This document shows, piece after piece, positions 17,007 to 54,640 of a stretch of DNA of 64,000 nt. The DNA is taken from the NCBI RefSeq assembly GCF_000312045.1, contig NZ_HE978634.1:1792098-1856097 (forward strand), written 5' to 3'. Positions within the stretch are counted from its first letter, which is position 1; every line of letters starts with the position of its first letter. The notes under the pieces are model-generated. The model was not told where the DNA came from and made no database searches. It saw only the letters and a program-made list of their open reading frames with translations. The position numbers and the translations under genes are program-made. The stretch is from Noviherbaspirillum massiliense JC206. GTDB taxonomy: Bacteria; Pseudomonadota; Gammaproteobacteria; Burkholderiales; Burkholderiaceae_D.

Positions 17007-17795
17007 ATGATCACCGTCAGCAGCGCCGAACTGAACGTCTGGATCGCGGCCCTCATCTGGCCGCTGACGCGCATCCTCGGCCTGCTCGCGGTCGCGCCGC
17101 TGTTCGGCAACCTGAACGTGCCGATGCGCATCAAGGTCGGCCTCGGCATCATGCTGTCGCTGATCATCGCCCCGACCGTTCCGGAATTGCCCGCGCTGGA
17201 CCCGCTGTCGCTCGCCGGCCTTCTCATCCTTGCCCAGCAGCTGGTGATCGGCCTCGCACTCGGATTCGCCATGCGCATCGTGTTCGCCGCCGTGGAATTC
17301 GCAGGCGAGGTCGCCGGCCTCACGATGGGCTTCGGCTTCGCCAGCTTCTTCGACCCCAACACCCACGGCCGCTCGTCCGCGATCAACCAGTTCCTCTCGC
17401 TGCTGGCGATCCTGCTGTTCCTCGCGCTGAACGTGCACCTGATGATGCTGTCGACACTGGCCGAAACCTTCCAGATCCTGCCGATCTCCTCTGCGCCCTT
17501 CTTCGGCGGCGGCTTCCAGCAACTGGCGAGCTGGGGCGGTCGCATCTTCAGCGCCGGCCTGCAACTGGCGCTGCCCGTCATCGCCGCCCTCCTCATCACG
17601 AACGTCGCCCTCGGCATCCTGACCCGCGCAGCCCCGCAGCTCAACCTGTTCGCGATCGGCTTCCCGATCACCCTCGGCGTCGGGCTGATCGTGATTGCGC
17701 TGAGCCTGCCGTATATTGCGACGCCAATGGCGAACTTCTTTCAGGAAGGGATCAATATGATGGGGCGGATTGCGGCGGTTGCGGGTGGGCGGTAG
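17007..17795 (+). CDS. fliR: Flagellar export gate protein FliR
   Basis: FliR (262 aa) is the single-copy export-gate subunit. It has about six hydrophobic helices and the conserved blocks RILGLLAVAPLFG near the N-terminus and EFAGEVAGLTMGFGFASFFDP in the middle. It is the last gene of the fliF-R operon. The sequence immediately after it changes character (lower GC, integron-type cassette), so the insert abuts the operon end without breaking a flagellar gene. Confidence 0.97.
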   Translation: MITVSSAELNVWIAALIWPLTRILGLLAVAPLFGNLNVPMRIKVGLGIMLSLIIAPTVPELPALDPLSLAGLLILAQQLVIGLALGFAMRIVFAAVEFAGEVAGLTMGFGFASFFDPNTHGRSSAINQFLSLLAILLFLALNVHLMMLSTLAETFQILPISSAPFFGGGFQQLASWGGRIFSAGLQLALPVIAALLITNVALGILTRAAPQLNLFAIGFPITLGVGLIVIALSLPYIATPMANFFQEGINMMGRIAAVAGGR

Positions 17796-18123
17796 CGGTT
17801 GTTACGCGGCGAATTCGGCAGATTCTATTTCCGACCGACAAAGCTCATAAGAGCAGAGAAAATCTCTTGCCACATAGACATGAGAGAGCTCATCCTTTAA
17901 GCTTTGACGCTCATTGTGAAGGCAAGGATGCTACCGACTAACCAGCGCCGGAGAAATTTGGAACCTGTTTAGTCAAGCCTTGTTTCACGTTTATTTATCA
18001 CTGCATGGATAAACAGTGTCGCTTCAAAGCCAGCACTGGTGCGGGTAGCGGACAGTCGAGCTGCTTTGCATATCAGCTTGGCGCCATGCATAGCGGACAC
18101 TGGGTGTCCATCTAATTATTCAG
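17796..18123. other. Non-coding left flank of the cassette insert
   Basis: No convincing gene is seen here. GC drops relative to the flagellar genes on both sides. Near the right end a perfect 6-bp hairpin (GGACAC-TGG-GTGTCC, about 18095-18109) is followed by an AT-rich stretch ending in the cassette boundary GTTAGGC. I could not find a matching GCCTAAC partner upstream, so this is not a complete attC. It may be a remnant of an earlier cassette or of the insertion target. Confidence 0.5.
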
Positions 18124-18451
18124 TTAGGCACCATACATGCGCGAGTTCATAGTTTCACTTGAAGGTGTTAATTCATTTGACGAGTTCGTGGCTGCTTTTA
18201 ATTCCGGGTTTTGTAATGCAGTAGGCGGACATTGGAACGGGCGAAGCTGGGATGCTTTTAACGATTACCTATCATGGCCCGAAGAGAACGAGTATCGTTT
18301 GTCGTTTGAAGGCTGGCATAAATGCCCCAGTCTTAGTGCTGAGGACCGCAGAATGATTACAGAAATTGTGAGGGGCAATCCTCATGTTGCCGCTAAATAT
18401 GCCTAACATTTCAATGGACACCGACGGCTGCGCCGCGGGTCATTTTTAACG
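18124..18451 (+). mobile_element. Single integron-type gene cassette
   Basis: The boundaries can be read exactly. The left end is TTAGGC (18124, after G at 18123) and the right end is the G at 18451 of GTTAGAG. Circularising the 328-bp unit would rebuild GTTAGGC, the exact inverse complement of the inner GCCTAAC core at 18401, as expected for an excised cassette. It holds one short gene, a 13-bp leader and an attC at its 3' end. No integron integrase or attI is present in the window, so this looks like a stray cassette without its platform. Confidence 0.8.
18137..18406 (+). CDS. Barstar-like ribonuclease inhibitor family protein
   Basis: An 89-aa protein resembling barstar: a short N-terminal strand (FIVSLEGVNSFDEFVAAF), then the hallmark GHWNGRSWDAFNDYLSW, similar to the FGxNWDALWD block that binds the barnase active site. 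In known systems barstar-type proteins neutralise barnase-type RNases or related toxins. No barnase-like partner is visible nearby, so it looks like an orphan immunity gene. Its TAA stop lies inside the GCCTAAC core of the attC, a classic feature of integron cassettes. Base composition is lower in GC than the flagellar genes around it. The target toxin is unknown. Confidence 0.75.
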   Translation: MREFIVSLEGVNSFDEFVAAFNSGFCNAVGGHWNGRSWDAFNDYLSWPEENEYRLSFEGWHKCPSLSAEDRRMITEIVRGNPHVAAKYA

Positions 18452-18458
18452 TTAGAGC
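18401..18458 (+). repeat. attC: attC recombination site of the cassette
   Basis: A 58-bp site with outer cores GCCTAAC (18401) and GTTAGAG (18451), which pair imperfectly in the integrated state. Inner arms TCAATGGACACC and GGGTCATTTTTAA pair with one unpaired base, as expected for the extrahelical base that sets orientation. The centre folds as CGGC-TGC-GCCG. Length and layout fit short attC sites. Confidence 0.8.
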
Positions 18459-18487
18459 CAACGGTGCGACTCCAACCGTACTTCTGA

Positions 18488-18916
18488 ATGAACCTCATGA
18501 GAAAGACCATAGAACAGCTAGAGGGCGCAGTGTGGCGCGAACCTGCGCATGGTTCGCATCTAGCCGCGACGTGCCACCAATTAAGAAAGAAGCCAATAAA
18601 TCAGTTCAGCGTTGAAGATTTGCGACTGATGATTGGCCAAGATATCGGGTCGGAATATCTCGTGCCTGTCGCAATGGAAGTCCTGGAGAGGGACCTACTT
18701 GCCGAGGGCGACTATTACCCGGGCGACTTGCTCAAGTCCTTGATTACCCTGCCAAAACAGTATTGGGAAACACACTCAAAGCAGCTGCGGCAAGCGAGAG
18801 ATGTGGCCTCACGCGCATTCACCAGGTTGGAAGAAGCCGCACAGCTGGACGCCCGCCCGAGCAACCGAGATTTGATGGCAGCAATTGAGAAGTTCTTGAA
18901 CGAACCGCCCCTATAA
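18488..18916 (+). CDS. CdiI-type contact-dependent inhibition immunity homologue
   Basis: A 142-aa soluble, helical protein. The segment LRKKPINQFSVEDLRLMIGQ followed by YLVPVAMEVLERD and GDYYPGDLLKSLI resembles a family annotated as contact-dependent growth inhibition immunity proteins. I recognise it by memory of the family, not by search. No CdiA, CdiB or Rhs toxin gene is nearby. It follows the boundary of the upstream cassette (18452) with a 36-nt leader, so it may be the gene of a second cassette, but no attC follows it. A second ATG at 18497 is equally possible as start and fits the family N-terminus (MRKTIEQLEG) better. It ends 35 bp before the flgL stop. Confidence 0.6.
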   Translation: MNLMRKTIEQLEGAVWREPAHGSHLAATCHQLRKKPINQFSVEDLRLMIGQDIGSEYLVPVAMEVLERDLLAEGDYYPGDLLKSLITLPKQYWETHSKQLRQARDVASRAFTRLEEAAQLDARPSNRDLMAAIEKFLNEPPL

Positions 18917-18951
18917 GCGCTACCCGAGGTCGACCGGCGCTACCCTTCCCC

Positions 18952-19857
18952 TCACCCAATGTAATTAAACAGCGACAGCTTGGAAATCTGCACGAAGGTC
19001 TGCTGTGCCGCGTCGAGCGTGATTTTCTGCTGCGTGAGGTCGGATGCGGCCTTGGCGTAATCCAGGTCCTGGATCGTGGACAGGGCGTCGCTGTACTGGA
19101 GGTCGACGTCGGTGCCGAGATTGTCCAGGGACTCGATTTCCTTCAGGCGGGCGCCGACGGAAGCGCGCACCGTCAGTACGTTGTCGAGCGCCTTGTCGAT
19201 ATTGCCGTGCGCGGTATCCAGTCCGGCCGTCAGTCCGGCCGTGCCCGGCGTCTGCAGCAGGGTCACGAGGTCGTTGAGTGTCTTGAACACGTCCTGCGGT
19301 GTGCCGGTGCCGAACACGGTGTCGCCCGTCACGTTCATCGCGATCTGGCGCGAGCCGTCGACCTGCACCATCTGCTGCCCGCTGTCGCCGATGTAGGTCG
19401 CACCGGCGGCGGTCCTGGTGAAGGGCTGGGTGTCGCTCTTGTAGCCGGAGTACATGTAGTTGCCGAGGCCGTCGCGGGCGTTGGCCAGGCTGACGAGCTG
19501 GTCCAGCTGTTCCTTCAGGTCGATGGCGATCGAGTTGCGGTCGGCATCCGAAAATGCGCCGTTGCCCGCCTGGATCACGGCGGTCTTGGCGTCCTGCAGC
19601 AAGGTGGTGACCGATCCCAGGTTGCTCTCCACCAGGTTCAGCGCATCCTTGACGTTCTGCCGGTTGACGCCGTACTGGGTATTGACGGACTGCGACTGGG
19701 AGATCTCGAGCGCGCGTGCCGAGCCGACCGGATCGTCCGACGGTGCGAGGATGCGCCGGCCGGTCGCGATCTGCTGCTGGATCTTGGCCAGGCTGGTCTG
19801 CTTTTCCATGAGCCGGGCCACGCCGGTTTCGTAGAAGTTGGCTGTGCTGATGCGCAT
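18952..19857 (-). CDS. flgL: Flagellar hook-filament junction protein FlgL (HAP3)
   Basis: FlgL (301 aa) links the hook cap protein FlgK to flagellin. The flagellin-like N-terminus (MRISTANFYETGVARLMEKQ) and C-terminal helix (DLTQQKITLDAAQQTFVQIS) are both present. There is no signal peptide, as expected for a type III export substrate. It lies 12 bp downstream of flgK, at the end of the flg operon, and its 3' end faces the cassette insert. Confidence 0.97.
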   Translation of the reverse strand: MRISTANFYETGVARLMEKQTSLAKIQQQIATGRRILAPSDDPVGSARALEISQSQSVNTQYGVNRQNVKDALNLVESNLGSVTTLLQDAKTAVIQAGNGAFSDADRNSIAIDLKEQLDQLVSLANARDGLGNYMYSGYKSDTQPFTRTAAGATYIGDSGQQMVQVDGSRQIAMNVTGDTVFGTGTPQDVFKTLNDLVTLLQTPGTAGLTAGLDTAHGNIDKALDNVLTVRASVGARLKEIESLDNLGTDVDLQYSDALSTIQDLDYAKAASDLTQQKITLDAAQQTFVQISKLSLFNYIG

Positions 19858-54145: not shown

Positions 54146-54640
54146 ATGACAATCCGTAATGTCCTTTTCATCTGTACTGGAAATTCCGGCGGCAGTCTCA
54201 TCGCGGAAGCCTTGGTTACAGTACTAGGAAAAGGAAAATTCAAGGGATTTAGCGCCGGAACCCGTGCTGCTGGATTGATTAATCCATATGCACTGGAGCA
54301 GATCCGGAAAATCGGTTATCCCTTGGAAAACCTGCGCAGCAAGAGTGTTAACGAATTTGCGTCACTGAATGCGCCGCAGATCGACTACGTCATTACCGTA
54401 TGCGATTACGCAGCAGCCGAACTCTGCCCTGTCTGGACTGGTAACCCGCTTTCAGGCCATTGGCGAGTTGAACGGGCACTGGCGATGGCCGGCTCCCACG
54501 AAGAAAAGCGTGCGTCCTTCGAGAAGCTTTTCAATCAACTCCACGCGCGGGTAGAAGCTTTTGTGCGATTGCCGCATCAAAGCACCGATCGGCACGCACT
54601 GCAACAAGCAACGAAGTCGATCGACGACATGCTGGCCTGA
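54146..54640 (+). CDS. Arsenate-reductase/LMW-phosphatase homologue lacking the P-loop Arg
   Basis: A 164-aa protein of the thioredoxin-coupled ArsC/low-molecular-weight tyrosine phosphatase family. The N-terminus NVLFICTGNSGGSLIAEAL follows the family's active-site loop, but CTGNSARS has become CTGNSGGS, so the CX5R arginine is Gly16. The nucleophile Cys10 and the two resolving cysteines, Cys86 and Cys94 (TVCDYAAAELCPVW), remain, as does GHWRVE. Without the arginine, oxyanion binding and phosphatase or arsenate reductase activity should be weak or absent. There are no other ars genes nearby. It could be a decayed or repurposed enzyme. Confidence 0.85.
   Translation: MTIRNVLFICTGNSGGSLIAEALVTVLGKGKFKGFSAGTRAAGLINPYALEQIRKIGYPLENLRSKSVNEFASLNAPQIDYVITVCDYAAAELCPVWTGNPLSGHWRVERALAMAGSHEEKRASFEKLFNQLHARVEAFVRLPHQSTDRHALQQATKSIDDMLA

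Follow-up and report, generated by a model that had tools for sequence, protein, structure and literature searches.

Remains of an integron platform with a single well-preserved cassette between fliR and flgL of Noviherbaspirillum massiliense JC206

In the decayed chromosomal integrons of Xanthomonas, as presented in PMC12444791, intI lies, where it has been kept, at one place downstream of ilvD. CALINs (clusters of attC lacking integrase) have been proposed to be degraded integrons, and those with one attC site are regarded as possible true positives in the consulted part of PMC9024848, according to which IntegronFinder 2.0 in its default setting reports CALINs from two attC sites upward and leaves attI undetected outside class 1.

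The locus described here, which fills the space between fliR and flgL, is an integron platform that has decayed but retains one well-preserved cassette; it belongs to a kind already known, that of the decayed integron or single-attC CALIN, with one attC only and no intact intI nearby. It shares with the single-attC CALIN, as far as this is set out in the excerpts of PMC9024848, an attC site without a neighbouring integrase, but differs from it in that attI and a relic of intI can still be read. Unlike the integrons of Xanthomonas, the platforms of this one genus are scattered and show three types of attI, the present one being placed between fliR and flgL. The isolated cassette outside an active array also recalls insertion at a secondary (attG) site, in contrast to which the left site at the fliR-flgL locus is an attI. 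Such insertion is reportedly the subject of Loot et al. 2024 in Nat Microbiol. It is mentioned in the available text of PMC12444791, and Loot et al. 2024 is cited in that of PMC11023631.

The cassette, its attC site and its product

The source genome (G000) comprises 4.19 Mb in three contigs, and the whole stretch of 64,000 nucleotides that was analysed (C1:1792098-1856097) is referred to as the window. Coordinates without a contig name are those of the window, and the flanks and the cassette are as follows.

17007..17795, plus strand: fliR, left flank, an intact open reading frame
18123..18129, plus strand: attI/cassette junction GTTAGGC, with the crossover between G18123 and T18124
18124..18451, plus strand: gene cassette of 328 bp, its ends read from the sequence and the attC model
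18137..18406, plus strand: cassette ORF of 89 amino acids, Barstar-like, with a PF01337 match
18401..18457, plus strand: attC site, from the covariance model match and the consensus fold
18488..18916, plus strand: CdiI_3 immunity gene, PF18616 at 105.1 bits
18952..19857, minus strand: flgL, right flank, an intact open reading frame

The unit at 18124-18451 is a real integron cassette. The initial annotation had read here a cassette with exact ends, the joining of which restores GTTAGGC, with a gene whose stop codon overlaps the attC core and with both flanking genes unharmed; all of this is borne out by the boundary sequence, by the attC model and by the open reading frames of fliR and flgL. 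The left boundary is G18123/TTAGGC and the right one G18451/TTAGAGC, with the crossover between G18451 and T18452 in GTTAGAG. G18451 joined to TTAGGC gives GTTAGGC, which is exactly what the inner core GCCTAAC (18401-18407) reads on the opposite strand, and the TAA stop codon of the cassette ORF (18404-18406) sits within that core. Only 13 bases separate the left crossover from the ATG, and the single ORF is framed closely by both crossover points, as in a gene cassette.

The attC site was matched at 60.6 bits (E 6.1e-12) by our own covariance model, R1, which is distinct from that of IntegronFinder and was built, with a structure drawn by hand and the window excluded, from 16 attC sites of arrays beside intI genes in the source genome and in three further genomes of the genus, G001, G011 and G012. 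The covariance check proposed with the initial annotation is thus passed with this model and not with that of IntegronFinder. Up to E 5, R1 has one further match in the 64 kb, namely the same attC read on the opposite strand (15.0 bits), and in the source genome the site ranks second among 20 matches up to E 1, the top match (C1:411-467) being a training site of R1. Folding the window attC together with 15 sister sites, seven of which are also in R1, gave a consensus hairpin of 15 pairs, eight of them changed on both sides. The core sites (RYYYAAC and GTTRRRY), the paired stem and the inner boxes are all present, the cores as GCCTAAC and GTTAGAG, the last base of the latter departing from the GTTRRRY code. 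Rfam gave no match on the cassette stretch at the gathering score, and two far below it at E <=5. A simple box scan also picked out an attC-like palindrome at 54416-54473, which is probably due to chance and has no R1 match up to E 5.

The cassette ORF matches the Pfam Barstar family marginally, at 24.4 bits against a cut-off of 23.4, and NCBIfam returned no match for it or for the gene at 18488-18916. AlphaFold run on the single sequence produced a poor model (mean pLDDT 63.1) with no PDB match at E 0.001; there was no match to the protein at E 0.001 in plasmids or phages and none in the other 14 genomes of the genus, and one distant relative (G161, 42%) was found among 293 other genomes of the family. 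A limited literature search returned no paper joining integron, cassette and barstar. Elsewhere in the genome, at C1:922 kb (L183 1282-2257), a barnase-type ribonuclease (PF00545) precedes an ORF that overlaps it and matches Barstar strongly (98.1 bits). Since that ribonuclease already has its overlapping Barstar ORF, the cassette gene is, judged by its sequence, a second, divergent and orphan Barstar-like gene of the genome, whose product would inhibit a ribonuclease-type toxin.

The CdiI_3 gene that follows exceeds its Pfam cut-off of 28 bits by far (E 1.9e-30) and may confer immunity to a contact-dependent toxin; its protein has matches in 5 of 293 family genomes and in 22 plasmid records, all below 60% identity. 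It starts 36 bases past the right crossover, as is possible for a cassette gene, and no second attC was found by R1 after it in the window up to E 5. It is probably a further cassette that lacks its attC, or it may be old flank. A scan of 17780-18960 found no sigma-70-like promoter, against a mean of 1.0 in shuffles, and gives no support to expression of the cassette locus.

The attI site and the relic of the integrase gene

The 330 bases upstream of the cassette form an integron platform, and the following features complete the gap.

17856..17924, minus strand: decayed N-terminal stretch of intI, IntI profile positions 8-30
17977..18128, plus strand: integrase promoter region and attI from nhmmer, with an R2 match at 17989-18128
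18001..18016, no strand assigned: CTG-N10-CAG box, presumably LexA-type by the naming of known integrons
18066..18076, plus strand: first direct repeat, taken from the alignment with genus attI
18086..18096, plus strand: second direct repeat, from the same alignment; we take the two to be attI direct repeats after known integrons

The initial annotation had stated that no attI lies in the window, which proved to be wrong. An nhmmer profile of five regions of the genus, with the window excluded, matches 17977-18128 at 89.4 bits (E 6.4e-27), the next match having an E value of 1.8. R2, built from the same five regions with a different program, finds 17989-18128 at 66.7 bits (E 7.4e-20) and nothing else up to E 10 in the 64 kb. 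Of the five regions, two adjoin a full IntI, a third adjoins an IntI with a stop and a fourth a fragment, and for the fifth none was detected. With the profiles of the two other attI types of the genus, the window reaches E 1.9e-4 (type C) or gives no match (type A). In a DNA search of the family, the stretch 17971-18021 has a match in G003 immediately upstream of a fragment of intI, and 18067-18130 has one at a cassette start in G010. In an alignment with 16 further attI regions of the genus, which mostly lie upstream of an intI gene or fragment, the window displays the layout common to them: an integrase promoter with the CTG-N10-CAG box, a pair of direct repeats some 20 bases apart, and the crossover. 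The left boundary of the cassette is the crossover point of attI, with both repeats and the integrase promoter region upstream, and attI adjoins a first cassette as in an integron platform.

Beside this attI there is a decayed intI fragment instead of a functional gene. The best ungapped match to the N-terminal IntI profile in 17796-17975 on the minus strand is 17924-17856, with a score of 33.75, reached by none of 1000 dinucleotide shuffles (99th percentile 26.4); the stretch was examined after a weak tblastn match, and this count is thus not fully blind. The relic is short; tblastn alone gives it an E value of 0.010 amid many chance matches, and it was absent from the output of a second tblastn run at E 1e-2. 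The relic implies position 1 of the IntI profile at 17945, two bases away from the 17943 predicted from the distance between promoter and position 1 in three related platforms (G003, G011 and G013). This positional agreement is stronger evidence for an intI relic than the shuffle count.

The genome search called for by the initial annotation yielded two full-length IntI over the curated cut-off, at C1:1047-1991 and C2:288667-289608, together with further attC sites. There are also a broken IntI at C2:271905-272588 and IntI fragments near C2:858-861 kb; given the position of the window on C1, none of these lies near it, and the profile search gave no match in its neighbourhood.

Since attI and the decayed intI stand upstream, the cassette occupies an attI of its own whose intI is lost, and we conclude with high confidence that the fliR-flgL gap contains the remains of a chromosomal integron. 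In order, the gap comprises the decayed start of intI on the minus strand, the promoter with the CTG-N10-CAG box, a full-length attI, the cassette with its attC and the CdiI-type gene. We propose that an IntI once inserted the cassette at this attI through the usual attC x attI recombination, and that deletion and mutation then removed intI while attI and the cassette stayed. Excision in trans by one of the two full-length IntI encoded at other places in the genome would still be possible.

Platforms of the genus and the retention of attI

Decayed platforms are common in the genus. R2 found 34 attI-like sites in 11 of 15 genomes (E 0.01 per genome), a number that includes its own five regions, under-counts attI of other types than the one modelled and may contain chance hits among its weakest matches. 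By tblastn of the 1.3 kb beside each site, five have a full intI, two an intI with one stop and nine a fragment, and for the remaining 18, the window included, none was detected. An attC site (E 0.05) within 3 kb downstream on the right strand accompanies 3 of the 5 sites with full intI, both of those with one stop, 6 of the 9 with a fragment and 10 of the 18 without intI, some of the fetched stretches being shorter than 3 kb on the attC side. At these last ten, of which the window is one, attC lies 273-935 bp downstream. The three attI types of the genus are visibly different and were grouped by eye from the alignment.

The source genome itself has nine integron-like loci (attI or intI with attC), two of them with a full-length intI. 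They are found at C1:874, C1:708781, C1:1810086 (the window), C1:2518196 and C1:3151632, and on C2 at 272.6 kb, 289.7 kb, 858-861 kb and 899.6 kb; the attI sites at C2:272.6 kb and C2:899.6 kb were picked out by eye before being aligned. At the ends of C1 (1-1000 and 3151600-3152253; L027, L028), two attI face each other across the contig ends and an attC match is cut by the end of the contig; if C1 is circular, these two sites enclose one cassette array. At C2:899.6-902.5 kb (L072 9600-12500), an attI without a neighbouring intI match is followed by five attC matches, and a cassette ORF there (L072:10961-11503) is COQ7-like (PF03232, E 7e-37).

Identity between the attI of the window and that of four platforms having intI or a fragment of it is 64-71%; these four share 62-75% among themselves, and the shuffled baseline is 57%. 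For the intI relic, identity to five copies of the gene is 52-61%, these copies share 68-80% with each other, and the shuffled baseline is 56%. For one locus and short sequences, this hints at retention of attI during the decay of intI. Such retention would fit its use in trans by another IntI, or a promoter function, of which there is no sign.

It is conceivable, although we consider it improbable, that the locus is a working satellite platform, that is, an attI without intI which selection maintains and on which the IntI of C1:1047 or of C2:288667 acts in trans. Consistent with this are the attI as similar to its type as the others are to each other, next to an intI relic at the shuffled baseline; the ten intI-less sites that keep attC downstream; and the mobilisation of CALINs in trans described in the accessible part of PMC12444791. 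However, the comparison concerns one locus and short alignments, and the attI of the genus were found by similarity, so that decayed ones were missed; moreover, the attI of both resident full-length IntI are of other types, the type A profile giving no match in the window and that of type C a weak one. We regard with similar reserve the extension of this idea to the whole genus, in which cassette-bearing attI would outlive their own integrase and stay usable, one or two intact IntI serving many docking sites.

Origin of the locus and its significance

A fliR-related sequence is present in all 15 genus genomes searched, and the best named relatives of the fliR of the source genome are Oxalicibacterium and Massilia. 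FlgL adjoins fliR in 13 of 14 relatives within the genus. From stop to stop, the gap measures 1156 bp in the window; in the 13 relatives having both genes inside the fetched stretch (G004, with no flgL match there, was left out) it lies between 16 and 164 bp in 12, with the remaining one (G007) at 809 bp. The latter gap (L087 2802-3612) was not counted as the same insertion, because no attC match was found up to E 0.05 in the stretch fetched. The comparison of this gap among relatives, as suggested with the initial annotation, thus indicates an addition of about 1 kb that takes in both platform and cassette and is confined, among the genomes seen, to the source genome. An intact integron between fliR and flgL was seen in none of the genomes examined, and against 294 family genomes the DNA of the gap has, outside the window itself, matches in short pieces only.

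The initial annotation had explained the cassette by insertion at a secondary site far from any platform, and of its interpretation the integron cassette with exact ends stands, but the secondary site does not. According to this explanation, IntI acting in trans would have put a free circular cassette into an attG-like site, and the lone cassette with its exact ends, the two full-length IntI that could have acted and the gap of relatives without such an insert agree with it. However, the left site is a full attI with its promoter region and with the relic of intI beyond it, and the gap exceeds that of relatives by about 1 kb and not by 328 bp. An attG insertion demands a target that is neither attI nor attC, and the target here is an attI; we have rejected this origin as very unlikely. 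A chance attC-like palindrome and attI-like stretch with no integron history has practically no probability: simple box scans yield chance palindromes elsewhere in the window, but the E values of attC and attI, which adjoin at the exact crossover base, rule it out.

The remains of an integron between fliR and flgL correct a natural misreading, in which an isolated cassette resembles an off-target insertion until the adjoining attI is recognised. The standard tool does not look for attI beyond class 1, as stated in PMC9024848, and proposed natural secondary-site insertions should be checked for a relic attI. If the use of attI in trans were true, the fliR-flgL locus would be a satellite platform among intI-less sites scattered over two large replicons. 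In the genus, platforms at different stages of decay can be counted, which lets one ask whether attI outlasts intI.
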